DNA from: a virus
DNA length: 38,118 nucleotides
Virus record (IMG/VR): IMGVR_UViG_3300047311_000833
Span: 1 to 38,118 of that record
Reading direction: 5' to 3' (one strand)
In this document: positions 6,387-37,840 of the stretch, one piece after another
Layout: each line of letters opens with the position of its first letter
Numbering within the stretch: the first letter of the stretch is position 1
Translations under genes and position numbers: made by a program
The notes under the pieces: model-generated
The model's input: only the letters and a program-made list of their open reading frames with translations
Databases searched by the model: none
What the model was told of the DNA's origin: nothing

Positions 6387-6412
6387 TATCAATTAACTAG
6401 CATTGGATAAAG

Positions 6413-6811
6413 ATGAAAGGCACAATACTTCTCAATTATAGTGATGATACTCGTCAAGTTGAGGACGAAGAAAAGGCTAGATTTCTGCGTGGAATTCTAT
6501 TTGCCAGCTTCGAAAACACTGACGTAGCAACCCAAATTGAAACAATTTGGAGTTCGGATGGGCCTTTGCCAGCCTCCCAAAAAGTAAAATTGAGAGGTAT
6601 CCTCGCTACTTACGGTATTCAGGTTATAGATGATCTTGATGGCCACATGCAGATATACTTAGAAAATGAGTTGATCGCTGAGTGGTACAAGTGCACCTAT
6701 AAACTAAAGAGAGACCTGCGTGCTATAGATCCGCGAAAGCGTATTTATCTTGAAATGGAAGTCAATTGTTGGTCAGTCTTTGACGACAAAGAGGAACAAG
6801 AGATAGAATGA
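6413..6811 (+). CDS. Conserved-looking phage hypothetical protein
   Basis: 132 residues, no named domain. The C-terminal half (LRGILATYGIQVIDD..., LENELIAEWYKCTYKLKRDL..., ending MEVNCWSVFD) resembles, from memory, a small protein seen in other large phages; no search could be run. It overlaps the downstream PIN-PhoH gene by four bases (ATGA), so the two are probably made together, and it could be a partner of that ATPase. SD-like GGATAAAG precedes the start. Confidence 0.7.
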   Translation: MKGTILLNYSDDTRQVEDEEKARFLRGILFASFENTDVATQIETIWSSDGPLPASQKVKLRGILATYGIQVIDDLDGHMQIYLENELIAEWYKCTYKLKRDLRAIDPRKRIYLEMEVNCWSVFDDKEEQEIE

Positions 6812-22118: not shown

Positions 22119-22631
22119 ATGTTAAGACTCATTAATACTGGTCAGCATCCAATAGTTTGGGATGGCATAGATCCTAATGCTAGCTTCTCTAATGAAGATA
22201 TTAAGAAGCTACAAGCTGAGTTTGATATCATATTCTCACATCATGATATGACAAAACTCAAGCCGGGCGACCGAGTTGATTGTCGTGTGAAGGCGTCCAC
22301 CATAGTCAGCCCTTACAAAAACTATGATGAAGTGAAGACCTTCGAGATTGTCGCAATTGATAATCACGGGTATTATCTATATGTACCCCATTACTATTCG
22401 TTGAAAAACACGTCCATTGCTAATAGCTATCAGTGTAAAGCGCTTGGGATAGACAAGAAGTTTCTCGATGAAAACATTGTCTATATTCAGGGTAACATGA
22501 TAGCTCATGTCCACGAGAAAATGGATGGAATGTCCTGCAAAATGTGCAGGGAGTTCTTCCGATATGCTGAGGCTAATCAGGAAGACGGCTCTCTAATTTG
22601 CTACTCTTGTCGTCAAAATCCATATCGATAA
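22119..22631 (+). CDS. Zinc-binding hypothetical phage protein
   Basis: 170 residues. A C-terminal zinc-knuckle-like cluster uses C140, C143 (CKMC) and C161, C164 (CYSC), with EFFRYAEANQEDGSLICYSC between. Phage proteins with the same ending are familiar from memory, but no function is known. The middle (TKLKPGDRVDCRVKA, FEIVAIDNHGYYLYV) looks like a small barrel. It lies just before the M23 peptidase. Confidence 0.72.
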   Translation: MLRLINTGQHPIVWDGIDPNASFSNEDIKKLQAEFDIIFSHHDMTKLKPGDRVDCRVKASTIVSPYKNYDEVKTFEIVAIDNHGYYLYVPHYYSLKNTSIANSYQCKALGIDKKFLDENIVYIQGNMIAHVHEKMDGMSCKMCREFFRYAEANQEDGSLICYSCRQNPYR

Positions 22632-22645
22632 CTAAGTATTATGGT

Positions 22646-23419
22646 ATGGTAGAATCGGATGACAGCTATTTACTCGGCCTAATTGAACAAGCAAAGGGCC
22701 TGTTTAGCTCTGAAAATAAGCAACCGGCCCCAGCGGCCCGAGCCCCAGGCGAGGCGCAAAACCAATTTGTAGCGTCTCCTGGGGGCTTCACGGCCCCAAT
22801 TCATGGCAGTTGGCACAACCTTGGCGGCTTTGACCCCGCCATGAAGCGTTATGATGACGATCCCAAAGCTGCCAAAGGCCGAGGCCATTTTGGTGTTGAT
22901 ATGAGTACGGCTGCAGGAACTCCTGTCTATTCTATGGGAACAGGCACGGTTAATACTGTTGGTACCGATACCATAGGTGGTAACATCGTGGGCGTCCAAC
23001 ATGCTGGTGAGGTTTGGTCCTATTACGCACATCTTTCTACCGCTAAGGTTCAGAAGGGTGATAAGGTAGACGCCAATACTATTATAGGTACCGTTGGAAA
23101 TACCGGTAATGCTGGTAACCCAAAGGATCCCCTCAAAACACAAGAGGGTGGAAGAACCTGGCCACATCTACACTTCGGTGTCAAAGAGCATGGTAGCTGG
23201 GTTGATCCTGCTAAGTACTTTAGTATCCCCGCATACGACCGTGAGTTCGCCAAGAACCCGAGCAAGTACCAGAAATTTTGGGCGTCTGATACGGCTAAAC
23301 AAGAAGCTGAAGCTTTCAATATGAAAGATCACAACGCTAAAAGAAGAGTTGCTTTCTCTAAGAAGGTTGACAAGCTCATGAAGCTAGCGTTTAAATACGC
23401 CAGCATCACTAAGCTTTAA
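22646..23419 (+). CDS. M23 family endopeptidase (cell-wall hydrolase)
   Basis: 257 residues from ATG 22646; the frame is open earlier but overlaps the previous gene. After a Pro/Ala-rich linker (25-45), residues 55-195 hold an M23/LytM domain. It has H81 and D85 (HFGVD), H129 (YYAHL) and H174/H176 (HLHFGV), with GT(P)VYS and the Gly-rich segment typical of lysostaphin-like zinc peptidases. It should cut peptidoglycan cross-bridges, in a virion or lysis context. No signal peptide is seen. The C-terminus carries the amphipathic helix VDKLMKLAFKYASITKL, shared with the 16761 protein and possibly a packaging or anchoring tag. Confidence 0.88.
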   Translation: MVESDDSYLLGLIEQAKGLFSSENKQPAPAARAPGEAQNQFVASPGGFTAPIHGSWHNLGGFDPAMKRYDDDPKAAKGRGHFGVDMSTAAGTPVYSMGTGTVNTVGTDTIGGNIVGVQHAGEVWSYYAHLSTAKVQKGDKVDANTIIGTVGNTGNAGNPKDPLKTQEGGRTWPHLHFGVKEHGSWVDPAKYFSIPAYDREFAKNPSKYQKFWASDTAKQEAEAFNMKDHNAKRRVAFSKKVDKLMKLAFKYASITKL

Positions 23420-23749: not shown

Positions 23750-26671
23750 TTATGGTGTTAGTCCGGCGCAACCATTCCACTGTAGGTAGATTCCGTTCTG
23801 CAAATGTAGATATCGTGAACATCCATTGCTTACTCCAGATGAAACTACTCCACCTGTTGACATAACTCCAGTACCACCAGTACATCCTGTAAACTGCGTA
23901 GCATTGGTTCCAGTATAGCTTACAGTGGAAACTCCAGTAGAGGTAGTTACAAAAATAATTCCACTTGTAGGGAATCCAGTTGTAGAGCCTACATTGATAG
24001 TAGCCTGTGGCAGAGTGGCGCCGTTAGAACCAACTGCAATATTTGTGGTTCCTGTAAAAGTGCCATTACCAACCGATCCGTTCAAGGTAAAGTTTGTACC
24101 ATTAATGACAGTGATAACCCAAGTACCATTGGCGGCTGTGTTACCCAAAACACCGGAGATGGTAACAGTTTGTCCAGTCACTAATGCATTGGTCAATCCT
24201 GTAGTAATTTGAATTGGTGTTACGTTGGTAGCTGCAGTTATTGTTCTTGTAGTTGTTTCTTCTGAGCTAAGTGAAAAAGTAGCGAAATTGGTTCTTCCAT
24301 TTCTAAGAAATGGAGCAGTGCCCATGAATTTATGATCTACTGAAAACGCATTACCAATTCCTGGTAGAGCTAGTGCAACGTCAGCAAGTGGGGCTGCCCA
24401 AGTTTCAATTGGCAGCAGTTCGGTAGTTCCAGTAAATGGAGAGTCTCCTGCATTTGCTGATAGTAATGGGCTAGTAGCTGAAGTACCATCCAAATTTGCC
24501 CATCCAGTTAATGCTGACAGTTCAGGTAGACCGTTTTTTATACAGTTACCTATATTGAGGGTTGATCCGGTTCTCAAAATTATTGTACCTGAATCGGTAG
24601 TTGGCGCGCCTCCATACAGGAATAATCTCTCTAAATTACTTGGTGTTGGTACCGGCTCATTATCTGAGATTCCAAACGTTAACATACCATTATTTGTTGC
24701 ACCAAGGGTTCTAGTGTACATAAAGACGTTTTGACCAGAACTCTCTCCCATTATTGTCATACGAGAGGCTGTGCTATCAGTTCCTAGTCCAGGAATAGTG
24801 TTATTATAAGATGTATTGACGCTTGGGTTAAAGTTCAAATACTCTACTATATTAGTGGTGGCGCTAAGCAAAGGGAATTCACCATTAGAAATTCCGCCAT
24901 ATCCTACGGCCGCCGATATACGTGGCAGGTTAGTAATTTCTGGTTCAGCGCATAGTCTAATTTGCCATCCAGAGGGATGTGGGCTTTGATAGATAGCCCT
25001 GCTGTTTGCAGCTACTGAAGCTCCGCCCAAATAACCAAACAGTACGGCGGTTCCGGTAGCACCACCAGCCGCATTTGCTACCGATCCATTTAGGGCAAAT
25101 GATGTTGAACCGGCCTGAGTAATAGTCCAGGTTCCGTTTGCGTTAGTGTTAGTGGCATGCCCAGCAATAGTAACTTGTTGCCCCGTAATCCAGGTGTGTG
25201 GAAAGTTACTATTAGTCTGAACAATGATTGGATTATTAACCGCACCACCAGTAGACATGGTGCCAGTGCCCCCTGAGCAACCAGTAAATTGTGTACCGCC
25301 AGCAACTCCAGTATAAGTAACAATCTGAGGCCCATTGCTTGTGGTAACGTTTATTACTCCTGGGTTAGGAAAGCTTGTCGTTGAAGCAACGTTGATAGTA
25401 GATTGTGGAAGCGATTGTCCATTAGATGCAACAGCGATAGTTGTATTGAAAGTATTGGATGAGCTACCAACACCAAGCCCTCCAGCAGTGTCATTCTGAG
25501 CAAATTTAACCATGTAGCCAGAAACTACTGTTTCAATTTCATATAGCCACCAGTTAAGAGAATTAGATTCAGCCGGAGGTGTATCAGTAGAGCGATAATC
25601 GATTACATATCTGTTTAAGTTGCTAACTGGGGCTCCAGTTGCCAATGTTCCAACACCACCTGTACATCCAGTAAAACTAGTGGCAGTTGTATTGGTATAA
25701 CTAATTGTCTGAATTGGATTTGAATTTGTAACTGACCCACCAATAGTCATTGTACCAGTACCACCTGTACATCCTGTAAAGCTGGTGGCAGTTGTATTGG
25801 TGTAAACAACTGTATTTAATCCTGTGCTGGTAACTACAAAGATAATTCCAGATGTAGGGAAACCAGATGTCGAAGCTACGTTAATAGTGGCCTGCGGTAA
25901 AATGGCTCCGTTGGAACCTGCTGCAATAGTTGTTCCAGTTGCAATATTTATAGTTCCAGATGTTGGGAAACCTGTCGTAGAGACTACGTTGATGGTAGCC
26001 TGCGGTAATGCTGCTCCGTTGGATGCAGCAGTGACAGTTGTGGTGTTGCCCAAATTGACGGCTGAGATTTTGAAGATTCCAGAGTTTTTAGTTGGGAAGT
26101 TAGGGCTTTTCAAAACAAGCGTCTTACCTACATCTGTTGCAGCTACTTGTTTTCTAGCAACAGGAATGGCTACTTCGTAAATGAATCCTGCGCCAAAATT
26201 AATGCTAGCAGCATAACCATCAGCAACTGAACCAGCGGCGTATTGAAACCCTGAAGTCATAGTACCTGAATTGGCGTTGTATGCTCCAGTTCCGTAGCTT
26301 CCATAAAGAGTAAACTGTGTTGGACTTAAAACAATTACTTTCCAACTTCCATTTGCGCCGGTGTTACCGGTTGCTCCAGAAATATTCACAACATAGCCGT
26401 CTATTAAACCATGTGCAAGGGGCGTTGTTACTACGATAGGCGTAGTGAAAGTGGCTGTAGCTATTGGTAGTGATTTGACGTTGGTATTATCTATATTCCA
26501 AGATGTTTGACCAACATTAGTGAATCCCAATATCTTAGTTAAGAACAAACTAAGATGATAAATAATAGGAACGTAAAACCTATTTTGATTAGCACCCCAC
26601 GAACCACCCCATGGCTGTGCAATGTAGCTAGCATTTAGTGGGCTATAATCTCTTGAAATAAACGTTACCAT
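23750..26671 (-). CDS. B-family surface protein B1 with four module 1 and three module 2 copies
   Basis: 973 residues from the ATG at 26671; an 18-codon upstream extension lies inside A1 and is rejected because TAATG links the two genes. The backbone matches B2 and B3: FISRDYS at the start, a LGFTNVGQTSWNID segment, NSGIFKISAV, YVIDYR, PSGWQIRLC, FGISDNEPVPTP and, at the C-terminus, NGRTNFATF and LQNGIYLQWNG. Into this backbone are inserted module 2 (near the N-terminus), two nested module 1 copies, a module 1 plus module 2 block, and a final module 2 plus module 1 block. It is thus twice as long as B3. Function unknown; exposed fibre or shell protein likely. Confidence 0.8.
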   Translation of the reverse strand: MVTFISRDYSPLNASYIAQPWGGSWGANQNRFYVPIIYHLSLFLTKILGFTNVGQTSWNIDNTNVKSLPIATATFTTPIVVTTPLAHGLIDGYVVNISGATGNTGANGSWKVIVLSPTQFTLYGSYGTGAYNANSGTMTSGFQYAAGSVADGYAASINFGAGFIYEVAIPVARKQVAATDVGKTLVLKSPNFPTKNSGIFKISAVNLGNTTTVTAASNGAALPQATINVVSTTGFPTSGTINIATGTTIAAGSNGAILPQATINVASTSGFPTSGIIFVVTSTGLNTVVYTNTTATSFTGCTGGTGTMTIGGSVTNSNPIQTISYTNTTATSFTGCTGGVGTLATGAPVSNLNRYVIDYRSTDTPPAESNSLNWWLYEIETVVSGYMVKFAQNDTAGGLGVGSSSNTFNTTIAVASNGQSLPQSTINVASTTSFPNPGVINVTTSNGPQIVTYTGVAGGTQFTGCSGGTGTMSTGGAVNNPIIVQTNSNFPHTWITGQQVTIAGHATNTNANGTWTITQAGSTSFALNGSVANAAGGATGTAVLFGYLGGASVAANSRAIYQSPHPSGWQIRLCAEPEITNLPRISAAVGYGGISNGEFPLLSATTNIVEYLNFNPSVNTSYNNTIPGLGTDSTASRMTIMGESSGQNVFMYTRTLGATNNGMLTFGISDNEPVPTPSNLERLFLYGGAPTTDSGTIILRTGSTLNIGNCIKNGLPELSALTGWANLDGTSATSPLLSANAGDSPFTGTTELLPIETWAAPLADVALALPGIGNAFSVDHKFMGTAPFLRNGRTNFATFSLSSEETTTRTITAATNVTPIQITTGLTNALVTGQTVTISGVLGNTAANGTWVITVINGTNFTLNGSVGNGTFTGTTNIAVGSNGATLPQATINVGSTTGFPTSGIIFVTTSTGVSTVSYTGTNATQFTGCTGGTGVMSTGGVVSSGVSNGCSRYLHLQNGIYLQWNGCAGLTP
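23843..24043 (-). repeat. Module 1 copy, B1 C-terminal site
   Basis: 67 residues: AVGSNGATLPQATINVGSTT then GFPTSGIIFVTTSTGVSTV, YTGTNATQFTGCTGGTGVM. Directly preceded in the protein by module 2. The corresponding place in B2 has module 2 only, and in B3 nothing. Confidence 0.9.
24044..24244 (-). repeat. Module 2 copy, B1 C-terminal site
   Basis: TITAATNVTPIQITTGLTNA then LVTGQTVTISGVLGNTAANG, WVITVINGTNFTLNGSVGNG. This pattern (ITTA.PH.LxTGxxVxISGVxGNTAANGxWxVxVxxxTxFxLxGSxGNG) is the phage tail module often labelled E1-FCCH-like. It lies next to the module 1 copy ending at 24043. Confidence 0.85.
25034..25237 (-). repeat. Module 2-like copy, B1 middle site
   Basis: FPHTWITGQQVTIAGHATNT then NANGTWTITQAGSTSFALNG. 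It follows a module 1 copy here, the reverse order of the C-terminal site. Boundaries approximate. Confidence 0.7.
25238..25444 (-). repeat. Module 1 copy, B1 middle site
   Basis: 69 residues, AVASNGQSLPQSTINVASTT then SFPNPGVINVTTSNGPQIVT, FTGCSGGTGTMSTGGAV. Absent from the equivalent place in B2 and B3, where the backbone runs straight from the WYLY segment to PR(L/I)(I/M)LQS. Confidence 0.9.
25619..26044 (-). repeat. Nested module 1 pair in B1
   Basis: The outer copy is split: its 5' part is 25934-26044 (37 residues, ending FPTSGTINIATG) and its 3' part is 25619-25720 (34 residues, starting NPIQTISYTNT). Between them lies a complete 71-residue copy (25721-25933). Joining the two outer parts gives 71 residues with the same spacing from FPTSG to FTGC (31 residues) as the inner copy. 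Confidence 0.85.
26238..26463 (-). repeat. Module 2 copy near the B1 N-terminus
   Basis: TPIVVTTPLAHGLIDGYVVN then ISGATGNTGANGSWKVIVLS, PTQFTLYGSYGTGAYNANSG. B2 and B3 have no copy at this place (SVGTLLIATGDTTPTVAP instead). Boundaries approximate. Confidence 0.8.
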
Positions 26672-28410
26672 TATGTACCTAAAGGTAGAAGACCATAAGG
26701 CAATAGTGAGCCGTCCCACGGCCACAAAATGCCATTGCCTACGTGTATAAATTCCCCATTATTGCCAAAGAGGTGGAAGCTTGGGAATACTGAGCTTGTG
26801 AAAGCAATCGTACGTAGCCTCCCTCTAGTTAGACAATATTGTCCGGCAGTTGCGACAGTAGAGATAATAGCATCAGAAATAATAGCCTGACCAAGCCTGT
26901 TCTGAATAGCTAATATACCAGATAAATTAGGCCCTATGGTGTAGGCGGTGCCAGTTACACCATCTCCTGCAAAATTTTTAGTCATCAACTGATTCGCTCT
27001 GGTTGTTCCGTCGGTTCCTACCATAAAGAAAGCGGTAGACAACGAATCAGTTGCTACTGCAGTAGTTAGATTATTTGCTCCAACTAGAATGGCCATTGGA
27101 TTTGGATCTTGGGCTTGGGAATATAGTCTTGTTGGCGTAATTATGTTGAAGTAGTGTCCGGTAGTAGTATTGGAGTTAGGGGATCTGATATGGCCAATGA
27201 AAAAATCTTGGTCGGCAATTAATGTTGCGACCCCTATTACGCCAGAAGTTACGCCGCTAAAAGTATTGGCGGTAGCTGTTGTTCTTTCTGTAATGGTAGC
27301 GCTGGCACCACCTGGTGATACGAAGGCTGAAACGTTATTCCAAGTTGCAGTTGGTGAGCCAAGAATTCCAAAAAGACCAAATGCATTTGCGGCTCCTCTT
27401 AGGAAGAATTGAAACTGGCTAATAGATTGTCCAGAATTTACATTTGCTGGACCAAACATTGTTCCAACTAAATAATTACCGTTGGCAACTGCTAGCTGTG
27501 ATGCCGCAATCAGATCAATTACTTTGTAGTTAAGATTTGATCTAGAGGTAATGTTATTTTTCTGTGTAGAGATATCTGGGGTTCCACCACTAAATGGTGA
27601 TAGCACTATTTGAGTGTTACTATTAACTGCGAGTATTCTGTAAATAGCATCATCCGTACTAATTGATCCAGAAGTGACACCACCATTAGTTGACATTAAT
27701 CCTGTACCGCCCGTGCATCCAGTAAAGCTGGTAGGATTTAAATTGGTATATGCAACTACCTGAGTTCCAGTGCTAGTTGCTACATAAATGGTTCCGCTAC
27801 TTGGAAAGTTGGTAGTGCTGTTTACGTTAATAGTGCCTTGTGGTAAGGTTAATCCGTTTGAAGCTGGGGTTATTAAAGTTGAGGAACCGTTAGACCATAT
27901 TACTACATGCTTTCCAATCATTGCTGATGTGAATGGTATAGATGCACTAGTGGTTAAAGTGGCCCCTAAGGCAGATGTTGATCCATCATTACCGGCCGCC
28001 AGAACAGAAGCGCCTTCAAAAAAACCAGCCGGTACGCTAGTACCGTTTGGAGGAATGGCGCCAGGAACCATTACTATAGCGTTAGGAGAGGTAGTAAAAT
28101 TCGCGTTACCAGTTGCTCCATTTAAATTGAATGTATTGGTACCAGTTACAGTAACAAGCCAACCACCATTTGCATTAGTGTTACCCTGAACGCCATATAC
28201 GCCAACTATTTGATTGCTAACCAATCCATGGGGATTGGAAGTTGTAATGTTGATTGGGTTTGCATTAGAAGCCTGCGTAATTGTTAAGACTGGATTGAAT
28301 CCATTTACACAGTATCCCCAGAATTCATAACACAACTTCATAAAGATAGGGATATCCCTTCCATTTGTGCCGGTCGTGTATTGTAATCCTCTGAGATATT
28401 TCCTAGCCAT
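26671..28410 (-). CDS. A-family surface protein A1 with module insertions
   Basis: 579 residues. It shares with A2 and A3 the start KYLRGLQY...LCYEFWGYCVNG, a middle signature LIADQDFFIGHIRSPN and LYSQAQDPNP, and the end FHLFGNNGEFIHVGNGILWP. The backbone is interrupted by module 2 near residues 45-110 and by module 1 between VIWSNGSS and STDDAIYRI, where A2 and A3 read (A/P)GS.SSED.LY. SD AAGGAAA. The stop overlaps the B1 start (TAATG). Virion surface role is likely by context; no enzymatic motif seen. Confidence 0.8.
   Translation of the reverse strand: MARKYLRGLQYTTGTNGRDIPIFMKLCYEFWGYCVNGFNPVLTITQASNANPINITTSNPHGLVSNQIVGVYGVQGNTNANGGWLVTVTGTNTFNLNGATGNANFTTSPNAIVMVPGAIPPNGTSVPAGFFEGASVLAAGNDGSTSALGATLTTSASIPFTSAMIGKHVVIWSNGSSTLITPASNGLTLPQGTINVNSTTNFPSSGTIYVATSTGTQVVAYTNLNPTSFTGCTGGTGLMSTNGGVTSGSISTDDAIYRILAVNSNTQIVLSPFSGGTPDISTQKNNITSRSNLNYKVIDLIAASQLAVANGNYLVGTMFGPANVNSGQSISQFQFFLRGAANAFGLFGILGSPTATWNNVSAFVSPGGASATITERTTATANTFSGVTSGVIGVATLIADQDFFIGHIRSPNSNTTTGHYFNIITPTRLYSQAQDPNPMAILVGANNLTTAVATDSLSTAFFMVGTDGTTRANQLMTKNFAGDGVTGTAYTIGPNLSGILAIQNRLGQAIISDAIISTVATAGQYCLTRGRLRTIAFTSSVFPSFHLFGNNGEFIHVGNGILWPWDGSLLPYGLLPLGT
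27676..27879 (-). repeat. Module 1 copy in A1
   Basis: TPASNGLTLPQGTINVNSTT then NFPSSGTIYVATSTGTQVVA, FTGCTGGTGLMSTNGGV. Sits in a loop that is continuous in A2 and A3. Confidence 0.88.
28077..28287 (-). repeat. Module 2 copy in A1
   Basis: NANPINITTSNPHGLVSNQI then VGVYGVQGNTNANGGWLVTV, NTFNLNGATGN. Inserted after WGYCVNGFNPV, where A2 and A3 run on into VPGGF. Boundaries approximate. Confidence 0.78.
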
Positions 28411-28419
28411 TATATTTCC

Positions 28420-28989
28420 TTATTGAATCCATCTAGCTACAATAGTTATGTTAACTAATGCAGCGCCACTTGGAGCTATCGAGTTGACGCTTCTTTCATA
28501 AGTTGGCGGGTTCTGACCAGGATCAAATAGTTCCGGGCGAGCAGTAATAATTTCTTTTTCAACCCACGTTTCAAATGCCATTGTAGTTGTATTGTATCCC
28601 TTTAGTTTATAGTAAACGAACTGATCTTTAGGATAGTCTTTAACCGAATCAATATCAACAACTTTCAAATCTACAACAGTATTAACAGTTTGGGTTCCGA
28701 AATTCGTTGTATATCCAGCATATTGTGGATTTTGAAATGCATTGATGGCACTCACCTCTATTGTTCCTGCCCAGTTTGTTGTGTAACCAGAATATCCCGG
28801 GCTCTCAAAAGAGTTGATAGATGTAGTACTTATAAAGCCTCCCCAATTCTGATAGTTACCTGTAAAAATTCCATCTACAAACTCTAAAGGAGATGTATCT
28901 TCGGTATAGCATCCCCAACTTCCAGAAGGAAAAGCTTCTGGAGAGTCGACTATAATCTGAGTTGTTAGTAACGTTTGAACTAGTGTCAT
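28420..28989 (-). CDS. C-family surface protein C2 with internal repeat
   Basis: 189 residues. Residues 56-79 and 80-103 are two near-copies of a 24-residue unit (INSFESPGYSGYTTNWAGT / INAFQNPQYAGYTTNFGTQ), with a degenerate third before them (LEFVDGIFTGNYQNWGG). The region from FVYYKLKGYNTTTMAFETWV to the end aligns with C1 (23416-23742). C1 has about 80 residues fewer and no repeat. SD is TAAGGA, which contains the B2 stop codon, exactly as at the B1-C1 junction. Role unknown. Confidence 0.75.
   Translation of the reverse strand: MTLVQTLLTTQIIVDSPEAFPSGSWGCYTEDTSPLEFVDGIFTGNYQNWGGFISTTSINSFESPGYSGYTTNWAGTIEVSAINAFQNPQYAGYTTNFGTQTVNTVVDLKVVDIDSVKDYPKDQFVYYKLKGYNTTTMAFETWVEKEIITARPELFDPGQNPPTYERSVNSIAPSGAALVNITIVARWIQ
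28681..28824 (-). repeat. 24-residue tandem repeat in C2
   Basis: Two consecutive units of 24 residues sharing the pattern S(I)N.F..P.Y(S/A)GYTTN(W/F).GT. Aromatic- and Gly-rich, compatible with a small repeated beta-hairpin. Confidence 0.8.
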
Positions 28990-28998
28990 AAATCATCC

Positions 28999-31266
28999 TT
29001 ATGGAACTACTGCCGGGCCATTCCATGGCATGTAAATGCCTCTTCTCATATGCTGAAAAGAAGCCCCTCTCAAAACAGTACCGCCACCACCGAAAGTTCC
29101 ATTTCCAGTTGTGCCATTTAAAGTAAACTGAGTGTTGTTGATAACACTTACGGTGAACGTACCATTGGCGGCTGTATTTCCAGTCACACCACTGATAGCC
29201 ACAATCTGTCCAGTTACTAGAGTATTAGTGGTCGTGGTAGTTATTTGAATTGGTGATACACCGTTACCTGATGTAGTGGAGACAGACCAAGATCCAGTAT
29301 CTGTTGCAAGCACAAAGTCTCCAAAGTTTGTTCTACCACTTCTGATAAAAGGTAATGTACCTATTACTCTTGGTTCATATGGAAATGCTTGTGTAGAAAT
29401 AGCATTATCCCAAGTTTGAGTTACGCCACTGACCAAATCTACTGGCAGCACTTCAGTGGACGAAGTCCATGGACTATCTCCTGCTTGAGCATCAAATGCT
29501 GGACCTGCGAATTGGTTATTTCCAGTAACATAAGCTAGTATGGCCGGGCTACAGGATTTAGGACCAAAATTATACAGCGACATAGTGGCGCCCTGAATTG
29601 CGCCGTTAGTACCGTGGCCTACTTGAAGACAAATATCATTAAGACGGCTGTTTCCTACGTTGTTACTGTACGCATTACCTAAACAGTATAGTCTGCCTAC
29701 ATTATCTAGTGGAAATGGGAAAGGCTCATTGTCTGGGAATCCAAAAGTCAGGTAGAAAGCTGGAGGTGAAGTTGCATTCAACGGTCTTCTGGCAAATATA
29801 TGTACTGATTGTCCAGTATCATCTCCCACCATAGTATATCTATACTGTGGACCAGTACCTGCATTGTCACCGCAGCCTATACCAGTATTGAAAATTTCAT
29901 TTGATGTATCATAGTATAAACCACCATGAAGATGCCTTCCATTTGTAGAAAAATCTCCTATAGAGCTACCAACAAATCCTGGGGCAAAAGTTATGGCCGA
30001 TGTTATAAAAGTAGTCTGTGTATCAGTCGAAGTCTCATTACAAATTCGAACTTGCCATCCAATTGCATGTGGGCTTTGAAGTATTAGTCTTGGAGTTGTT
30101 GAGTTTCCACTTCCCCTATATTGACCGGCACTTGATGTATTAACAGCTCCATTGACAGGACAGTTAATGTCTTTATCATATAGATACCAAGGTACTGTAT
30201 CTGCCGCCTCTACTAACGCCGTGTCACCATTTCCCCTATAGTCTATGACAAATTTGTTCTGGTTGTAAACGGGTTCTCCAGTTATTAGCGTGCCAGTTCC
30301 ACCAGTACATCCCGTAAACTGCGTAGCGTTTGTGTTAGTATACGTTATGGTTTGAATGTTGTTGGAGCTAAAAACTGTGCCTCCAACAAATAGGAAATTG
30401 GTTAGCCCTGTGCATCCAGTAAAAGTTGAAGCTGTAGTTCCAGTATATGTAATAGTCTGAACTCCACTCAAAGTAAGCATATTTAGACTTCCAGTAGCTG
30501 GAAATCCTGTGGTTGAAGCAACAGTAAGAAGACTTGCCGCCTGTACCGTATTACCCGTGTTAATTACTCCGGTGCCGCCAGTACAGCCAGTAAGGTTTGC
30601 ACCAGAGACTCCAGTGTAGCTAACAAGTTGTACGCCAGTAGTAGATTGAATCAAAGCGCTACCGGTGGGTTGCTGTAAGTTTGCAATGTTGCTTATGTTG
30701 ATAGTGCCAGTAGGTAGTGTTAATCCGTTAGATCCAGAAGCAACCGATACGTTAGTAAAAGGATTAGATGTAGTATTAGGCCCCACGAAAAAAGTTCCGC
30801 TAGTTGGAAATCCAGTTGTAGAGCCTACGTTGATGGTGCCGGTTGGTAAAGCAACGTTATTAGATCCTGAAGCAATTGTTGTTGCGTTTCCTTGTTGTAA
30901 CGATGAAATCAAAAAGATTCCAGAGTTTCTGAATGGATATAATGGACTTTTAAATACAAGTATTCTTCCAACATCTGACGGGATAACGCCACGCACACCT
31001 ACTGGAATAGAAATTTCAATAGCCGCACCGTTGTTAGCAATACCCGCTTTACTATTTCCTGGGAAAGTTGGAGCAACCGTTGGGGTCGTATCTCCAGTAG
31101 CAAATAAATACTGTCCTACACCGTTGATGTTAAAATTAGTATCTCCAACATAACTATAGCCTAAGGTTCTGCGTAGAAAAATAGCTGTCAAATAGGAAGA
31201 TATGTACTGCCTATTAGCTGTCGTTGTATTTTGTGAGAGATAATCTCTTAGTAAGTGTGTAGCCAT
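28999..31266 (-). CDS. B-family surface protein B2 with three module 1 copies and one module 2
   Basis: 755 residues. Backbone shared with B1 and B3: LLRDYLSQNTTTANRQYISS, LGYSYVGDTNFNIN, ATGDTTPTVAPTFPG, NSGIFLIS, FVIDYRG, WYLYDKD, LILQSPHAIGWQVRICNE, FGFPDNEPFPFP and the end FQHMRRGIYMPWNGP. Between NSGIFLISSLQQGN and NKFVIDYR lies a 207-residue block of module 1 material, where B3 has only about five residues. Before FQHMRRG a module 2 copy has been added. Likely exposed structural protein. Confidence 0.8.
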   Translation of the reverse strand: MATHLLRDYLSQNTTTANRQYISSYLTAIFLRRTLGYSYVGDTNFNINGVGQYLFATGDTTPTVAPTFPGNSKAGIANNGAAIEISIPVGVRGVIPSDVGRILVFKSPLYPFRNSGIFLISSLQQGNATTIASGSNNVALPTGTINVGSTTGFPTSGTFFVGPNTTSNPFTNVSVASGSNGLTLPTGTINISNIANLQQPTGSALIQSTTGVQLVSYTGVSGANLTGCTGGTGVINTGNTVQAASLLTVASTTGFPATGSLNMLTLSGVQTITYTGTTASTFTGCTGLTNFLFVGGTVFSSNNIQTITYTNTNATQFTGCTGGTGTLITGEPVYNQNKFVIDYRGNGDTALVEAADTVPWYLYDKDINCPVNGAVNTSSAGQYRGSGNSTTPRLILQSPHAIGWQVRICNETSTDTQTTFITSAITFAPGFVGSSIGDFSTNGRHLHGGLYYDTSNEIFNTGIGCGDNAGTGPQYRYTMVGDDTGQSVHIFARRPLNATSPPAFYLTFGFPDNEPFPFPLDNVGRLYCLGNAYSNNVGNSRLNDICLQVGHGTNGAIQGATMSLYNFGPKSCSPAILAYVTGNNQFAGPAFDAQAGDSPWTSSTEVLPVDLVSGVTQTWDNAISTQAFPYEPRVIGTLPFIRSGRTNFGDFVLATDTGSWSVSTTSGNGVSPIQITTTTTNTLVTGQIVAISGVTGNTAANGTFTVSVINNTQFTLNGTTGNGTFGGGGTVLRGASFQHMRRGIYMPWNGPAVVP
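29080..29290 (-). repeat. Module 2 copy in B2
   Basis: SPIQITTTTTNTLVTGQIVA then ISGVTGNTAANGTFTVSVIN, NTQFTLNGTTGNG. Located between NFGDFVLATDTGS and FQHMRRG; in B3 these two parts are nearly contiguous (NFGDFSPSTDAARSFQHMRRG in meaning, with no module). Boundaries approximate. Confidence 0.85.
30262..30882 (-). repeat. Multiply nested module 1 block in B2
   Basis: Outer copy: 5' part 30754-30882 (ASGSNNVALPTGTINVGSTT...) and 3' part 30262-30363 (NNIQTITYTNTNATQFTGCT...). Between them are inner copy 1 (30535-30753, VASGSNGLTLPTGTINISNI...) and a shortened inner copy 2 (30364-30534) that starts at LLTVASTTGFPATG and lacks the GSNG..LP head. The nesting point matches that in B1. Confidence 0.8.
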
Positions 31267-31275
31267 TTATAACCT

Positions 31276-32835
31276 TTAGAATGGGAATAGGGTGTATGGT
31301 AGAACTGATTTATCCCATGGTATTGCCACGCCCTGCGTTATGAGAATAAAGTCTCCTGAACTAGTGTTAAATCTGGTAAACTGCGGCATGAAAATGTTAG
31401 CGAATCTAACTCTTCTCAATCTTACTCTTGCTAGTGAGTATTGTCCAGCCACACCTGGGAGCGTTAAAAATCCTGGTGAGTTCAGCAGGTTACCAGTAAC
31501 CGCATTTGCTCCGGCCCTAAAATCATCCAAATTATTACCTGGAGTATCGGCTGCAGTTGTTAGCGACAAGTTAGCGTTTCCATCTCCTGATAGCGATCTA
31601 ACAGAGCACCTATGTGTTCTAGCAGTACCATCATTACATTTCATAACCCAACCACCACCATAAGTATGGGTAGTAGAGGTAGATGGAAATTGTACGGCCG
31701 TACCAAATCCATTGAAATTAACTACTACTGGATTTGGATCTTGTGCTAATGTATATAACCTGTCTGGTATTTCTAGATGGAATACTATACCTGGTGTACC
31801 CTGCGGATTATTTGTATCCCTATAGTGTCCAATTAGAAAATCCTTATCTCCAATAAGTGTTATCTGTTGTGTTGTTCCTCCAGAGCTTCCGTTAAAAAAA
31901 GTATTAGTAGAGACTGTATTGGGCGCAGTTTGTGTTGTCGCATCACTAAAAGTAGTTCCGTTCCAGGTGCCAGCAGGAGATATCCTATGATCAATTCTTC
32001 CGTTTGTTGAAGCAATAATTAGCTGGACTTGTGAATTGGCCTGTCCAGCATTTACTCCAGTTGGATCAAATTGCATAACCATAAAGTTACCGTCTGCAAC
32101 GCCTGTAGTGGCACCAGAAATACCCATATCAACTACTCTATAGTTGATGGAGGTTCTATTGGTGAAGGAAGGTTTATATCCATCTGGAGCGCTTGGAGTG
32201 CCACCATTATTTACGTTAACTTGAATTTGTGTTGGCGATACAAATCCAATGATATTGTATAGCCCATCTTCTGAAGAACCAGATCCCGCCTTCCATGTAA
32301 CTAAAGTTTTACCAACCATTGCCGATGTAAATGGTTGAGAGGCGGCAAAGAAATTCTGAGTGCCGCTAAATTGGAAGTTAGTAGTTTGATTTGTGTATCC
32401 GTCATTTCCAAATGTTAGCAGACTTGGGCTGGTTACGTTATTTCCTGTGGACATAACTCCGGCACCACCAGAGCATCCTGTAAATGTATTACCAACTATA
32501 TTAGTGTAAGTAACTGTTTGGGTACCCAAAGTGGTGAAGACATAAATGGTTCCGCTGGCAGCGAACCCAGTAGTAGATGCTACTGCAATAACTGCTTGTG
32601 GCAAAGTCTGTCCGTTAGAACCAACTGCGATGGTTGTGAAAAGACCCTGGAAGTCTCCGGGCAAACCACCACCAAACGGAGTAGTTGTCGCAAAACCACC
32701 TGGGACAGTTAAGGAAGCCGTGCCGTTAATAGAGTATCCCCAGAATTCATAGATCGCTTTTAGAGGATAGGTTGCCTTAGGAGCACCGTTGGTAGTCCCA
32801 GTAAAAATTAGCGTTCTACAAAATTTTGTTGCCAT
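31276..32835 (-). CDS. A-family surface protein A2 with module 1 insertion
   Basis: 519 residues. A-family features: YPLKAIYEFWGYSINGT near the start, TLVTWKAGSGSSEDGLYNI, TLIGDKDFLIGHYRDTN, RLYTLAQDPNPVV, ARVRLRRVRFANIFMPQF and GVAIPWDKSVLPYTLFPF. One module 1 copy follows GDFQGLF in the N-terminal third, a different place from the A1 copy. SD GGGAGA. Nine bases separate it from B2. Function unknown, virion surface likely. Confidence 0.8.
   Translation of the reverse strand: MATKFCRTLIFTGTTNGAPKATYPLKAIYEFWGYSINGTASLTVPGGFATTTPFGGGLPGDFQGLFTTIAVGSNGQTLPQAVIAVASTTGFAASGTIYVFTTLGTQTVTYTNIVGNTFTGCSGGAGVMSTGNNVTSPSLLTFGNDGYTNQTTNFQFSGTQNFFAASQPFTSAMVGKTLVTWKAGSGSSEDGLYNIIGFVSPTQIQVNVNNGGTPSAPDGYKPSFTNRTSINYRVVDMGISGATTGVADGNFMVMQFDPTGVNAGQANSQVQLIIASTNGRIDHRISPAGTWNGTTFSDATTQTAPNTVSTNTFFNGSSGGTTQQITLIGDKDFLIGHYRDTNNPQGTPGIVFHLEIPDRLYTLAQDPNPVVVNFNGFGTAVQFPSTSTTHTYGGGWVMKCNDGTARTHRCSVRSLSGDGNANLSLTTAADTPGNNLDDFRAGANAVTGNLLNSPGFLTLPGVAGQYSLARVRLRRVRFANIFMPQFTRFNTSSGDFILITQGVAIPWDKSVLPYTLFPF
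32434..32637 (-). repeat. Module 1 copy in A2
   Basis: AVGSNGQTLPQAVIAVASTT then GFAASGTIYVFTTLGTQTVT, FTGCSGGAGVMSTGNNV. In A3 the flanking segments (VLPTNFTGG and LLATGTDGYHP) are joined directly. Confidence 0.88.
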
Positions 32836-32848
32836 TTATTGTCTCCCG

Positions 32849-34315
32849 TTATGGTATTATGTTTGGACCATTCCAAGGAATAAAGAGCCCACGTCTCATA
32901 TGCTGAAAAGAACGGGCCGCGTCAGTAGATGGCGAAAAATCTCCGAAGTTAGCTCTTCCTTCATAGACATATGGTATTGTTCCCATAAGTCTAGGTGCTA
33001 ATGGATAAGCCGGAATTGCTGAACCAGTGATAAATCCACCAGTATTCCATCCAGTTAAAGTTCCTGATATTAAATCAAGTGGGAGTAATTCTGTAGAACT
33101 AATAAATGGCGTATCAGAGGCAAAAGAATCAAGTTGTGGCCCAGTATTCTGGCCACCTCCAGTAATAAATGCCCAGAAAGAGGCGGCACACGCTACTGGG
33201 GCCCCAAATGTCGCAACACTCATTCCTTGTGAAACGTTATTTACGTTAATTATACTAGAAATAATACCCGCTTGTAGTCCCATATCATTAATTTCTCTAG
33301 CTCCAAAATTGTCAGAGCCCATAAATCCAGTTCCTATTGTAAACAATCTGGCCGCTGGATTAAGTGGTAGTGGCAACGGCTCATTGAATGGTAATCCAAA
33401 AACACATACAAATCCGGTTGGCTGTGTAGAGTTTCCAGGTCTTCTGGCAAACATTGCTGCGCCATATCCATCATCTCCGCCAATCATGGTAACCCTAAAT
33501 TGTGTACCGGTAGCACCACCACCATCACCTATGCCTGGCGCCCCTCCTAGATATTGGTTGCCACTAGAATCAGCCCACTGTGGAGCATGAGTGTGAGCCC
33601 CGCCGACAGTAAAATCACCAGCAACCGTTCCTCCAAAACCAAGAGCAACTGATGTGATAGGGCAATTCAATGAGTTAGGACCAGAAGCAAAATCAGCAGT
33701 ACTTTCATTACAAATTCTAACTTGGTAATTTATTGGGTGGTTACTCTGTAACATAATTCTAGGAGTAGTTGAGTTTCCATCACTTCTATATTGCGCAGCG
33801 GTTTTAAGAGTATTTCCTACGCCCTGAGTTGGGCAGTTAGTATCCTTTTCATAAAGATACCAGTTCATACTATCAGCAGGCTCTATAGGCGGTTTATCTC
33901 CTAGTGTTCTATAATCAATGATGTATGCATTGGTTGGAATATCAAAACCAACGATAGTGAATAGTCCAGAGTTAAAAGTTGGATTGCTTGTACTTCTCAA
34001 GACTAAAATTCTACCAACATCGAGTAAAGAAACGGTTCTTACGCTAACAGGAATTGAAACATAGAATTCTTTTTGCGATCCTAAGTTAATTCCAGCTTTT
34101 CTACCCACCCCGAATGTAGGGGCAACTGTTGGAGTTGTATCTCCGGTAGCAATTAACAATGTACCAACAGAATTTATGTTGAAATTAGTATCTCCAACAT
34201 AAGTAAATCCCAGTACTCTTCTCATAAAAATGGCAAGAATGTACGCATAAATGTAAGTTCTGTTACCGGTGGTAACATTCTGTGTCGTATAGTCTCTACA
34301 TAGATGTACTGTCAT
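32849..34315 (-). CDS. B-family surface protein B3, no modules
   Basis: 488 residues, the shortest B protein and probably closest to the ancestral backbone. HLCRDYTTQNVTTGNRTYIY, LGFTYVGDTNFNIN, LIATGDTTPTVAPTFGVGR, NSGLFTIVGF, AYIIDYR, WYLYEKDTNCP, PRIMLQSNHPINYQVRICNE, FGLPFNEPLPLP and the end FQHMRRGLFIPWNGP all align with B1 and B2. At every place where those carry module 1 or a C-terminal module, B3 has a short direct join. The function is not recognised. Preceded by A3 with a 9-base gap; SD AAGGT. Confidence 0.8.
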   Translation of the reverse strand: MTVHLCRDYTTQNVTTGNRTYIYAYILAIFMRRVLGFTYVGDTNFNINSVGTLLIATGDTTPTVAPTFGVGRKAGINLGSQKEFYVSIPVSVRTVSLLDVGRILVLRSTSNPTFNSGLFTIVGFDIPTNAYIIDYRTLGDKPPIEPADSMNWYLYEKDTNCPTQGVGNTLKTAAQYRSDGNSTTPRIMLQSNHPINYQVRICNESTADFASGPNSLNCPITSVALGFGGTVAGDFTVGGAHTHAPQWADSSGNQYLGGAPGIGDGGGATGTQFRVTMIGGDDGYGAAMFARRPGNSTQPTGFVCVFGLPFNEPLPLPLNPAARLFTIGTGFMGSDNFGAREINDMGLQAGIISSIINVNNVSQGMSVATFGAPVACAASFWAFITGGGQNTGPQLDSFASDTPFISSTELLPLDLISGTLTGWNTGGFITGSAIPAYPLAPRLMGTIPYVYEGRANFGDFSPSTDAARSFQHMRRGLFIPWNGPNIIP

Positions 34316-34323
34316 GATTTACC

Positions 34324-35871
34324 TTAAGTTCCGTAGAATAATATTTTGCTAAGATGAATGGTATTATCCCAAGGCCAGCAAAGTCCGGAAAATTGAGTTA
34401 TCTGAAGAAACTCTCCATTCAAACCTATTCGATGAAATTGAGGCACATGTGTTCCAGTGAATTTTACTGATCTCAATTTTACTCTTGCCAAGCTATATTG
34501 ATTAGTAATTCCTGGTAAACATAATATTACATCTGATTGTGGTATTGTGCCTTCAACTGTATTAAATCCTATTTTGTAATCTGTTAAATTTCTTCCAAAT
34601 ACATCTGGTGTTCCGTCACCCCTGAATGCTTTGACTAATGCTCTATATGATCTAGCAGTTGTGGAATCTGACGGATGAGTTCTCATAATCCACCCACCTC
34701 CATAGCTTGATGTAGTCTGCTGCGTATCAAGTCTGCCAGTGTTTCCAGTTTCTCCCAAGAAAGCTACTGGATGCAAATCAGCATTTTGTGGATAAAGTCT
34801 TGTTGGTATTTCAAAATAGAAACTACTATGAGCATTAAATTGGAATACATCCTGCTCTCTAATGTGAGCAATTAACATTGTTTTATCACCAATCAGAGTA
34901 AGGGCCGTTGCCCCTGCAGTATATCCCTGGTTTGTGTTTGGGTTGTATGAAAAAATACACTGGTAACCATCGTTTTGAAAACCATTCCAGATAGTGCCGC
35001 TATTGGCTGTGTAGGCTCCGTTTCCAACTGATCCTACTAGAGAAAACTGAGTTGCATTAACTACCGTTACTACCCAACTTCCGTTGGCTGCCGTATTAAC
35101 TAAGGCTCCAGTTATATTAATTGTTTGTCCAGTTGAAAAGTTATGAGGTGTTGGAGTGGTGCATACAATGGGTGTAGCGTTTGTGGCCGTACTTAAAACG
35201 AACGAGTTGCCTGCCCAGGTTCCAGTACCAGATATTCCTCCGCCTAAGAGGGCTACTGAGTCGATGCCTATTTGAGTGATTTGAATCTGGGAATTAGCCT
35301 GTCCAGGATTAATACTGCTCGCATCAGTCTGAAATACCATGAAATTTCCGTTACCTGCTGCTGTTTGTAGGGAAGCGGCGCCAGTTTCCATATCTAGAAT
35401 TCTATAGAACACTCCAGTTCTAGCTGTCATAGAAGGATGCTTAGTAGTTGGATTTGGTGTTCCTCCAGTATTGATATTTATAACTAGCTGTGTACTGGAT
35501 ACGACTCTAGAAATAAGATATAGTGAATCTTCTGAGCTATTGGAGCCTGGGACCCAAATAGCTATGATTCTACCTGCCATACTCGGAGTAAATGAAGCTC
35601 CAGGAGAGCTGAATAAACAGTCTCCGCCGAACAATTGTCCTGAAACTGCTGGATGGTATCCATCTGTTCCAGTTGCTAGTAGACCTGTTCCACCAGTGAA
35701 GTTTGTTGGCAAAACAGTTCCATTAACCGCTGCGAATCCGCCCGGAACTGTTGTTGAATTGGGGGCCCAAACACAAAATCCCCAAAACTCATAAGTCCAT
35801 TTCATTCTCCAGGCGACTCCCCTACCACCACTGTTAGCATTGGGATACACCATGCCTCTGACAAATTTCAT
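34324..35871 (-). CDS. A-family surface protein A3 with one module 2 copy
   Basis: 515 residues. A-family signatures: KFVRGMVYPN, MKWTYEFWGFCVW, AIWVPGSNSSEDSLYLISRV, TLIGDKTMLIAHIREQD, RLYPQNADLHP, ARVKLRSVKFTGTHVPQF and LNGEFLQITQFSGLCWPW. No module 1. One module 2 copy sits between NSFVLSTA and QNDGYQCIF. SD CAGGAG. It is the first A gene after the LamG genes. Confidence 0.8.
   Translation of the reverse strand: MKFVRGMVYPNANSGGRGVAWRMKWTYEFWGFCVWAPNSTTVPGGFAAVNGTVLPTNFTGGTGLLATGTDGYHPAVSGQLFGGDCLFSSPGASFTPSMAGRIIAIWVPGSNSSEDSLYLISRVVSSTQLVININTGGTPNPTTKHPSMTARTGVFYRILDMETGAASLQTAAGNGNFMVFQTDASSINPGQANSQIQITQIGIDSVALLGGGISGTGTWAGNSFVLSTATNATPIVCTTPTPHNFSTGQTINITGALVNTAANGSWVVTVVNATQFSLVGSVGNGAYTANSGTIWNGFQNDGYQCIFSYNPNTNQGYTAGATALTLIGDKTMLIAHIREQDVFQFNAHSSFYFEIPTRLYPQNADLHPVAFLGETGNTGRLDTQQTTSSYGGGWIMRTHPSDSTTARSYRALVKAFRGDGTPDVFGRNLTDYKIGFNTVEGTIPQSDVILCLPGITNQYSLARVKLRSVKFTGTHVPQFHRIGLNGEFLQITQFSGLCWPWDNTIHLSKILFYGT
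34977..35199 (-). repeat. Module 2 copy in A3
   Basis: TNATPIVCTTPTPHNFSTGQ then TINITGALVNTAANGSWVVT, NATQFSLVGSVGNGAYTANS. Ends with GTIWNGF, as the N-terminal B1 copy ends GTMTSGF, so these two copies are close relatives. Boundaries approximate. Confidence 0.82.
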
Positions 35872-35915: not shown

Positions 35916-36881
35916 TTACACTAACCAAGTATCGAGAACCTCTGGGTTAGTATAGGGCCCAGTACATGGGAAAGCTGGTGCATTAGCTAGGGAAATTTGC
36001 GTATCTACCCAAACAACCGCAGTTGGAGTTGGGCAAGAAGTATCATAGGCTCTTAATTTGAAAAATTGATTAGCTGCTACCCTACCAGGTATTGTTGGAA
36101 GTGCGCCAGCTCCATAAACCGATTGAAAATATGAAAGCGGCCTGGCTACATTGGCAATCCTAACGTCCTGAATTTGAGCATTTGGCTCTTCTTTATTTGT
36201 AGAACCGGTTGCTGTAATGCCGCCAATTCTCCAAAACCCTGACCCATTGATTCCATCTGTGTAAGAGATGTTTCCTGCTGCCGTAGAATTTAGCTGTGTA
36301 GCTCCAGAGTAATAAATACACTGACAACCATTCAGATATGCACGGATAGCTGTTCCATCATGTGTTATTCCAATATGTGACCATGTTTGTAATGGAATGA
36401 GGAAATCTGTTACAGTAAGAATTACTTGAGTTGAAGAACTAGTAGCAATTTGAATGTACCAATCGCCACCTCCGTTAGTAGTCGCAACAGTTATGTTAAG
36501 TGCGTGGAAAGGAGTGCTCCATGCACTAGTGATACCAGAATCTCTATATTCTTTTCCTATTAGTGTCTGTTGATTAGCTGTCGTATACGATCTTAAATAT
36601 ACCCAAAGAGATACTGTAAGTGGCGGAGCAATTTGGATGGTTTTTGCACCAGCAGCGTAATTTCTGGTAGCAGATGAGCCGGTTGGGAAATTGGTGGTTC
36701 CGGGAAGTTGTGGGCAGTTTCCTCCAAAAAGACCCGCCCCAGTTCTAATAATTGTGTTTGTAATAGTAAGATCAGTAGTGGCACTGTTAGGAGAAAGTGA
36801 TCCCGTGTTTCTATATACTCCTGAAGTTTCATTCAGTAGCCAAACTATTTGGTCATTAATGTCTGGAGTTATTCTTGTCAT
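35916..36881 (-). CDS. LamG/concanavalin-like surface protein 2
   Basis: 321 residues. A LamG-type jelly-roll covers about residues 10-245: NDQIVWLLNETSG, PPLTVSLWVYLRS, LQTWSHIGITHDGTAIRAYL and QIQDVRIANVARPLSYFQ are the usual four signatures. Such domains bind glycans or proteins and are common in phage surface proteins. The last 60 residues (FFKLRAYDTSCPTPTAVVWV, then EVLDTWLV) form a separate tail, also found in the LamG gene upstream and in the C family. It lies two bases from the upstream LamG gene. Confidence 0.85.
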   Translation of the reverse strand: MTRITPDINDQIVWLLNETSGVYRNTGSLSPNSATTDLTITNTIIRTGAGLFGGNCPQLPGTTNFPTGSSATRNYAAGAKTIQIAPPLTVSLWVYLRSYTTANQQTLIGKEYRDSGITSAWSTPFHALNITVATTNGGGDWYIQIATSSSTQVILTVTDFLIPLQTWSHIGITHDGTAIRAYLNGCQCIYYSGATQLNSTAAGNISYTDGINGSGFWRIGGITATGSTNKEEPNAQIQDVRIANVARPLSYFQSVYGAGALPTIPGRVAANQFFKLRAYDTSCPTPTAVVWVDTQISLANAPAFPCTGPYTNPEVLDTWLV

Positions 36882-36883
36882 AT

Positions 36884-37840
36884 TTATCCTATTGTTTTCC
36901 AGGTTTCCAAAACCTCGATAGGCCCCAGCCCACTGCCACTTGGTGATGCTGGCGCTCCAGCGTATGAAATACTAGTTCCAACCCAGTAAACTGCGGTTGT
37001 TGTATATAGTACATCATAAGCCCTCATCTTATAGTAAGTAACTACAAGACCACCAGTTCCACTATAATTAAGTGTAGCATTTTGGTAGATGTTCTGAAAA
37101 TATGCTTGATTTCTAATAACGTTAGCAACTCTAACATCACAGTATCCAGCAGATGGTTCTTCTGGGCTTCCCGAGCCAGAAGGAATGGCGCCCATAAACC
37201 ATGGACCAGGGGTACCACTGTAAAATATATTTCCAGTTGGTGAGGCAACTACTGATGCAACATTGTTACCATTAATATAACTTAGTACTGTTGTTCCATC
37301 ATATGTTGCACCAACATGAGACCATGTATTGAGTGGTATATTAAAATCTTGTACTGCAATAGCCGATCCTCCAGCGCCAGAAGCGTTAGTTAAATAGAAA
37401 AAATCAAACTGGGTTGGTAAGCTAGCGAATTGTCTATTTTGAGCCATAGCTATTGAGCTAAAAGTAACTCCGCTCCATACTCCGGTTGTAGTCTGTTTAC
37501 ATACACCATGCTGTGTAAGCCCTGATGAATTATATGCTCTTTGGTAATACCAAAAAGATATTGTGATTGGAGGTTGTGGTAGAAAGTTGTTAGCACCGGA
37601 AATGAAATTTCTAGGGCTGCTGCTCTGGTTTCCTGAAAATTGAACTGCGCTATTTGGCCCGAATGGTGCGAACGGGCTAGGCTGTTGTGTAAATATAGTG
37701 CCAGAAATAGTAGCTAAGTCCGATACCAAATGTGATGGGGCAGATCCAGACGTTGATGAATTCACGAACGGAGCCGTTGCTTCATCTAATCTCCAAACTA
37801 CGATATCATTGTTATCTGGTGCTACTCTAATTCCTACCAT
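36884..37840 (-). CDS. LamG/concanavalin-like surface protein 1
   Basis: 318 residues, a paralogue of the 35916 gene. LamG signatures: NDIVVWRLDEATAPF, PPITISFWYYQR, LNTWSHVGATYDGTTVLSYI, YCDVRVANVIRNQAYFQ. The C-terminal tail is TYYKMRAYDVLYTTTAVYWV, then EVLETWKTIG. The jelly-roll probably recognises a host surface sugar, or decorates the particle (inference). No catalytic residues visible. Confidence 0.85.
   Translation of the reverse strand: MVGIRVAPDNNDIVVWRLDEATAPFVNSSTSGSAPSHLVSDLATISGTIFTQQPSPFAPFGPNSAVQFSGNQSSSPRNFISGANNFLPQPPITISFWYYQRAYNSSGLTQHGVCKQTTTGVWSGVTFSSIAMAQNRQFASLPTQFDFFYLTNASGAGGSAIAVQDFNIPLNTWSHVGATYDGTTVLSYINGNNVASVVASPTGNIFYSGTPGPWFMGAIPSGSGSPEEPSAGYCDVRVANVIRNQAYFQNIYQNATLNYSGTGGLVVTYYKMRAYDVLYTTTAVYWVGTSISYAGAPASPSGSGLGPIEVLETWKTIG

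Follow-up and report, generated by a model that had tools for sequence, protein, structure and literature searches.

The origin of domains within domains is usually inferred from single structures. The DNA analysed here (the window, meaning the whole 38,118-base virus record) raises the question of how proteins of this kind grow, and in which direction. It encodes three related proteins, B3, B2 and B1, and a first-pass annotation had described B3 as the empty version of loops that are filled in the other two with small modules, M1 and M2, some of them nested.

Paired genes, a shared core and its joints

The A/B gene cluster of the window lies entirely on the minus strand, in the order two Laminin_G_3 genes, A3, B3, A2, B2, C, A1, B1, and the coordinates of its genes, modules and joints given below refer to that strand. 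B3 (32849-34315) is a core protein of 488 amino acids in which neither M1 nor M2 was detected. Its paralogues are B2 (28999-31266), of 755 amino acids, and B1 (23750-26671), of 973 amino acids from the start common to its relatives. As listed, the B1 open reading frame spans 23750-26725 (991 amino acids, GTG start at 26725); comparison with the relatives places the start at the ATG at 26671, and this codon overlaps with the stop of A1, the gene before it. The A and B genes are adjacent in pairs: A3 (34324-35871), the partner-type gene before B3, carries M2 at 35011-35190; A2 (31276-32835), before B2, carries M1 at 32437-32637; and A1 (26671-28410), before B1, carries M2 at 28096-28281 and a single M1 at 27682-27879. 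Homology between A and B was not convincing (hhalign probability 5.9%). Gene C (28420-28989, 189 amino acids), which travels with the cluster and in which short imperfect repeats can be seen by eye, separates B2 from A1 in the window. The two tandem Laminin_G_3 (concanavalin-like) genes at 35916-37840 head the cluster, and the relatives described below have two or three similar ones. Adjoining the cluster on the opposite strand is a peptidase or endolysin-like gene (22598-23419, plus strand; PHROG 6700, E 1.3e-20), listed with a TTG start, that occurs in relatives too.

Viral-contig scans with B3 and with the B alignment recovered the same cluster in relatives L008 to L014 and L016 (L015 is the same contig as L010), on parent contigs of 23 to 481 kb, several of them of jumbo-phage size. 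We named the window, L011, L012 and L013 group I, and L008, L009, L010 and L016 group II; L011 and L012 are near-identical (99.88% over 20.4 kb), and L014, which has one A, one B and no modules, was the outgroup. The place of gene C differs: its neighbours are B2 and A1 in group I, B3 and B2 in group II. Scanning with module-free A proteins gave no contigs beyond those already known, and B3 and B2 had no relative among annotated phages or in one scan of bacterial and archaeal genomes. For gene C the viral-contig scan gave no relative; that scan is insensitive, since it also overlooked the C genes already known in the relatives. A terminase search of six records gave no match over the cut-off. 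In a tree of the cores computed without L012, the seven B1 proteins form one clade and the three group-I B3 proteins another, both with support 100. Group-II B2 and B3 stand beside group-I B3 in this tree, so that the group-II "B3" is no strict orthologue.

B3 and B2 are 62% identical over residues 1-123 and 47% over residues 127-467 (best E 1.3e-77), and a three-way alignment with B1 bore out the three pairs of empty and filled joints reported by the first-pass annotation. The sequence IVGFDIPTN-AYIIDYR is unbroken in B3 (site 1, residues 119-136, 33908-33961), while nested M1 is found there in B2 and B1. WYLYEKD...PRIMLQS (site 2, residues 152-190, 33746-33862) is short in B3, as it is in B2, and contains M1 and M2 in B1. 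NFGDF...FQHMRRG (site 3, residues 456-473, 32897-32950) is short in B3, contains M2 in B2 and M2 plus M1 in B1. The comparison can be refined in two respects. At the second and third joints of B1 the M1 lies inside the M2, near its start in the former and in its last hairpin in the latter, and B1 orthologues show M2 alone. Further, a fourth joint had been overlooked (site 0, residues 56-60 of B3 approximately, 34136-34150), which among the three B proteins of the window is filled only in B1; it holds M2 in group-I B1 and M1 (+M2) in group-II B1.

The contents of the filled joints are as follows. Site 1 of B2 (30274-30882, residues 129-331; about 129-333 in the alignment) has an outer M1 with two inner, partly degenerate M1 copies, and its site 3 (29092-29277, residues 664-725) has an M2. 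In B1, an M2 occupies site 0 (26279-26458, residues 90-149), and an interrupted M1 occupies site 1 (25631-26041, residues 229-365; about 229-367 in the alignment), scoring 84 bits once the inner M1 (25733-25933, residues 265-331) is removed. Site 2 of B1 is filled by an M2 (25049-25483, approximately residues 415-559) with its inner M1 at 25241-25444, and site 3 by an M2 (24056-24241, residues 829-890) with its M1 at 23846-24046.

Once the modules had been removed from 22 B proteins of eight contigs (L012 being left out) and the remaining cores aligned, the 40 outermost inserted blocks fell on only six core positions, in B3 numbering 56-60, 125-127, 137-138, 163, 172-174 and 468, accurate to a few residues as the cut ends depend on the profile borders. 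The claim that insertions concentrate at a few joints of one core therefore stands. Because the match between B3 and B2 is strong and the same joints recur across these proteins, it is confirmed that the joints of the B proteins are not a product of chance. The 24 blocks of 18 A proteins occupy about seven positions, of which one lies at a contig edge.

Whether the joints are tolerant loops, as had also been proposed, is answered in part by the structure predictions that the first-pass annotation recommended. The B3 model was fairly confident (pTM 0.84, mean pLDDT 74), but that of B1 failed (pTM 0.34, mean pLDDT 40). In the B3 model the joints are predicted as coil or hairpin turn: a turn connecting strands 117-125 and 130-133 forms site 1, and sites 2 and 3 are both coil, the latter with pLDDT below 50 at residues 455-467. 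However, 62% of this model is coil, so that a location in loops says little by itself. Stronger support comes from the use of the same joint by M1 and M2 in different proteins: at joint 125-127, four proteins have M2 and seven have M1.

The modules and their nesting

M1 is about 68 amino acids long and M2 about 62. Our M1 profile has 67 positions and was built from 51 copies. M1 has no Pfam family: among 46 copies there were two weak matches to the Ig-like Big_1 (best E 0.13) and one weak match to PilM. The same copies matched PHROG 22827, of unknown function (35 of 46), PHROG 2885, annotated as baseplate wedge subunit (34 of 46), and PHROG 9689, a virion structural protein (22 of 46). Against the PDB, the M1 profile found designed Pizza propellers (best whole-chain E 2e-6), a match that we rejected as repeat bias because each copy is weak alone (the two alignments listed have i-values of at least 4.8). 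M1 is widespread beyond the cluster, a viral-contig scan having kept 77 loci, some on contigs already known here. Two plus-strand proteins of the window (13784-15715 and 15715-16752) have one M1 each, hence M1 has spread beyond the A/B genes; the first of them also has a short collagen-like stretch (a weak Pfam match, below the cut-off).

M2 is of the E1_FCCH type (PF16190), B1 scoring 32.7 bits over a curated cut-off of 29.5. The M2 copies of B2 (22.7 bits) and A1 (16.2 bits) scored below it, and A3 had no PF16190 match, though our own M2 profile finds M2 there. This profile reaches E1 enzymes in the PDB weakly (E 0.03), and in the low-confidence B1 model E1 enzymes align with two M2 regions at Z 9-10. 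One of these is the M2 at site 2, whose 80 aligned residues extend across model residues 395-547, of which only the first and last are reported; the gap that this leaves has about the length of the inner M1, which fits nesting.

One explanation for modules at such places would be mobility, with M1 and M2 as intein-like or homing elements capable of inserting themselves. Insertion does recur at fixed places, also in the two unrelated plus-strand proteins, but M1 and M2 have only about 62-68 residues and no enzyme match in Pfam. Nor did we see any target duplication at the junctions when reading them by eye, a weak indication at this divergence. We regard self-insertion as highly improbable.

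In order to describe the nesting, complete M1 copies were removed iteratively, which restored full-length outer M1 joined at three loops, located after profile positions ~26, ~36-39 and ~49-56. The restored outer modules scored 61-93 bits in a first run and 35-92 bits in a looser one, in which 174 modules, 28 of them interrupted, were removed from 101 proteins (some contigs being repeated in the set). Within the group, with L012 left out, 22 of 74 M1 were interrupted; one of the 22, in B2 of the window, is a weak case of 46 bits with its join at position 9. Joins at module edges were not counted as nesting. The outer module of B2 in L011 and L012, with its join at profile position 15, is doubtful and was not counted either. 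Unmatched halves were left after excision in A2 of L008, L009, L010 and the edge-cut L016, and in B2 of L011 and L012. No M2 rejoined by excision was found by profile, and such an M2 escapes the profile because the M1 copies sit at its ends.

When module ends were treated as brackets, all 21 group proteins with at least three module ends were balanced, against 5.2 expected at random order, an excess that looks larger than it is, given the non-independence of orthologues and of the near-identical L011 and L012. Nesting occurs in sixteen of the 21 and is deepest in A2, with up to five levels in L008 and L009 and four in L010. We had loosened the bracket rule after viewing a strict version, which overlooked short halves and gave 77 of 100 proteins balanced and 8 nested (repeats of contigs included). 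The three A2 proteins just named (L008, 6224-9991; L009, 2648-6421; L010, 4462-8244) have about 1,255 amino acids, their extra length being mostly M1 and M2. On other contigs, in a count that omits nine rows from re-fetched pieces, 13 of 17 proteins balance, and two of these, in L068 and L122, are nested. The L122 protein (4552-6639), with M1 nested in M1, resembles the group only in its M1 region among the listed matches, so that nesting is not confined to the cluster. In the L068 protein (6494-8116) separated M1 halves with long spacers are bracket-balanced and do not rejoin on excision, possibly a decayed nesting.

Could this order be an accident, produced by duplication and deletion of half-modules in tandem arrays and not by insertion of whole modules? 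Tandem M1 pairs are common, the outer M1 halves of B1 in the window have 78% and 74% nucleotide identity to the matching inner halves, as local duplication would give, and the remaining four of the 17 proteins on other contigs are unbalanced. However, the balance of the group proteins exceeds the random expectation, the inner copies are complete, their removal restores full-length outer modules at the same three fixed loops, and orthologues differ by whole modules. An origin from half-modules is thus improbable. The sequence order A1-B-A2 of recursive domain insertion of the SI3 type is present here, repeated over levels (the letters do not denote the genes here). M1 has three tolerant loops and M2 two, and a module already in place therefore accepts more M1, which makes growth recursive.

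A probable growth series at orthologous joints

Comparison of orthologues revealed joints in several states. Site 1 of B1 is empty in L008, L009 and L016, contains one M1 in L010, L011, L012 and L013, and contains M1 in M1 in the window. At site 2, M2 is present in all eight B1 proteins and only that of the window has an M1 inside; at site 3, M2 is again present in all eight, and the window and L013 alone have an M1 in the last hairpin of that M2. In A1, the second joint has a single M1 in the window and M1 in M1 in L008, L009, L010 and L016; in L011 and L013 it is empty, as is the other joint that holds a module in the A1 of the window. As two genes each offer one joint in the empty, the once-filled and the twice-filled state, nested growth can be traced stepwise.

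Parsimony favours gain as the origin of the inner layers that are found only in the window, which requires one step against three or four (equal cost, three rootings), and gain of the M1 at site 3 takes two steps against three or four. Whole joints gave a tie, with four steps against four at site 1 and two against two at site 3, or three against two with B1 as outgroup. B3 may represent the state before insertion, as was proposed. All four group-I B3 proteins (window, L011, L012 and L013) and L014 are empty at all joints, and no remnant of a module was detected in B3 of any relative, but the tie for whole joints does not choose between gain and loss. If the ancestor had modules, B3 would be a stripped form that lost them by deletion. 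Loss indeed wins where gains are made to cost more, and it is plausible in A1 of the close relatives L011 and L013, whose two empty joints are occupied in the window and group II alike. Against a stripped B3, besides the absence of remnants, the empty joints align at similar length in four of the five proteins (group-I B3 without L012, plus L014), and M1 is absent from the entire 94-kb L014 record. Loss in B3 is, on balance, unlikely.

The first-pass annotation also proposed a search for strain variants with different loop contents. The one near-identical pair, L011 and L012, has the same contents.

As to the source of the modules, DNA comparison of the window modules with other copies found no donor: the nearest copies are 58-77% identical, and one of 11 has its nearest copy inside the window. 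Gene conversion might have copied filled joints between A/B paralogues, with few true insertions. The paralogues lie side by side in one cluster, the M1 linkers are alike in B1, B1 of L010 and B2, and the outer C-half of B1 in the window is closest in protein to its counterpart in B2 of the window (81%), in a half-by-half comparison that gave mixed answers on the source of the B1 halves. Yet conversion alone cannot place M2 at site 1 of the group-II B3 genes and M1 at the same site of B1 and B2, and M1 nucleotide identity is 61% both within and between genomes, so that no recent copying is seen. Like loss in B3, conversion as the main process is rather doubtful.

Likely role and known systems

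A Foldseek search of the B3 model against the PDB gave no match at E<=0.001, and against viral models it gave two uncharacterised phage proteins at that threshold. A second structure aligner matched the model to chain K of the JBD30 baseplate (PDB 8rk3) with Z 15.4 and rmsd 4.3 over 249 of 317 residues, the next row having 5.8. The residue numbering of chain K runs to 318 and so agrees with gp47 (318 amino acids), not with gp48 (307 amino acids). These two proteins are 30% identical when aligned and belong to the same PHROG, which sets them apart from A and B. In sequence, B3 had no match to gp47 at E up to 10, nor to PHROG 687 at E up to 0.1, and is therefore not filed in the gp47/gp48 sequence family, the shared feature being the predicted fold. 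The predicted resemblance of the B core to gp47 is supported by this one model. The tail fibres of JBD30, which bind the type IV pilus, are described as consisting of three gp47-gp48 heterodimers (PMC11445458). Since the B3 model resembles gp47, a virion fibre subunit decorated through its loops is a likely role, and the three A-B pairs of the window suggest by analogy a pairing like that of gp47 and gp48.

We give a probability of about two in three to the overall reading in which the B proteins are paralogous fibre subunits with a shared core, whose loops are filled recursively with M1 and M2, B3 being bare. It builds on what the alignments show, namely the joints, their contents, the balanced nesting in sequence and the orthologous series of empty, single and nested states. 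B3, B2 and B1 would belong, as subunits, to a fibre on the virion of a large phage, either a tail or a baseplate arm; each has an A-type gene beside its own and is probably paired with that A. A few loops of the core would tolerate extra sequence, M1 and M2 having been placed there in different combinations, and B3 would retain all joints empty. Insertion may have occurred by illegitimate or homeologous recombination, being kept only where the product was in frame and foldable. The modules most likely enlarge or vary a presumably exposed fibre surface, perhaps for adhesion or spacing.

More tentatively, and as a possibility that we would not put ahead of its negation, M1 may be a self-hosting module. 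Each copy supplies its own acceptor loops, so a protein could grow without fixed limit, and M1 might in this way diversify branched decorations on three paralogous fibre arms, of which B3 is bare; that levels were added over evolution at the same joint would follow from the orthologues being empty, single or nested there. Phages would thereby have a means of varying the outer surface, if the fibre reading is true. The proteins also offer a natural list of insertion-tolerant loops and modules, useful for protein design.

How does this compare with known systems? JBD30 gp47 is like B3 in fold over most of the B3 model and, with its partner gp48, in being encoded by two adjacent genes, as A and B are. 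It differs in having no sequence match to B3, which is 170 residues longer, and in that JBD30 has one gp47-gp48 pair, whereas three diverged A-B pairs are found here. E1_FCCH, which M2 matches, occurs here in a phage structural context. Domain mosaicism of phage tail proteins, in which small domains are described across unrelated virion proteins (PMC10684548), concerns Ig-like and other shuffled domains; in contrast, M1 has no supported Ig match, and the modules here lie within loops and within one another.

Recursive domain insertion is already known elsewhere. In SI3 of the cyanobacterial RNA polymerase subunit RpoC2 it is reported to reach six levels, and 1,116 families are reported to act as both host and insert (PMC13114784). 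The observation in the B proteins is nonetheless real and unusual. In the literature that we searched, which covered few subscription papers, we found no description of modules nested within themselves in phage virion proteins, and as far as this search goes a module hosting itself in such proteins, with empty, single and nested states at one joint, is new. Like SI3, the A and B proteins have small units, here putative domains, nested in one another over several levels. Unlike SI3, they would be phage virion proteins, in which one sequence module, M1, is both insert and host to itself and in which the empty, single and nested states can be compared at the same orthologous joint.
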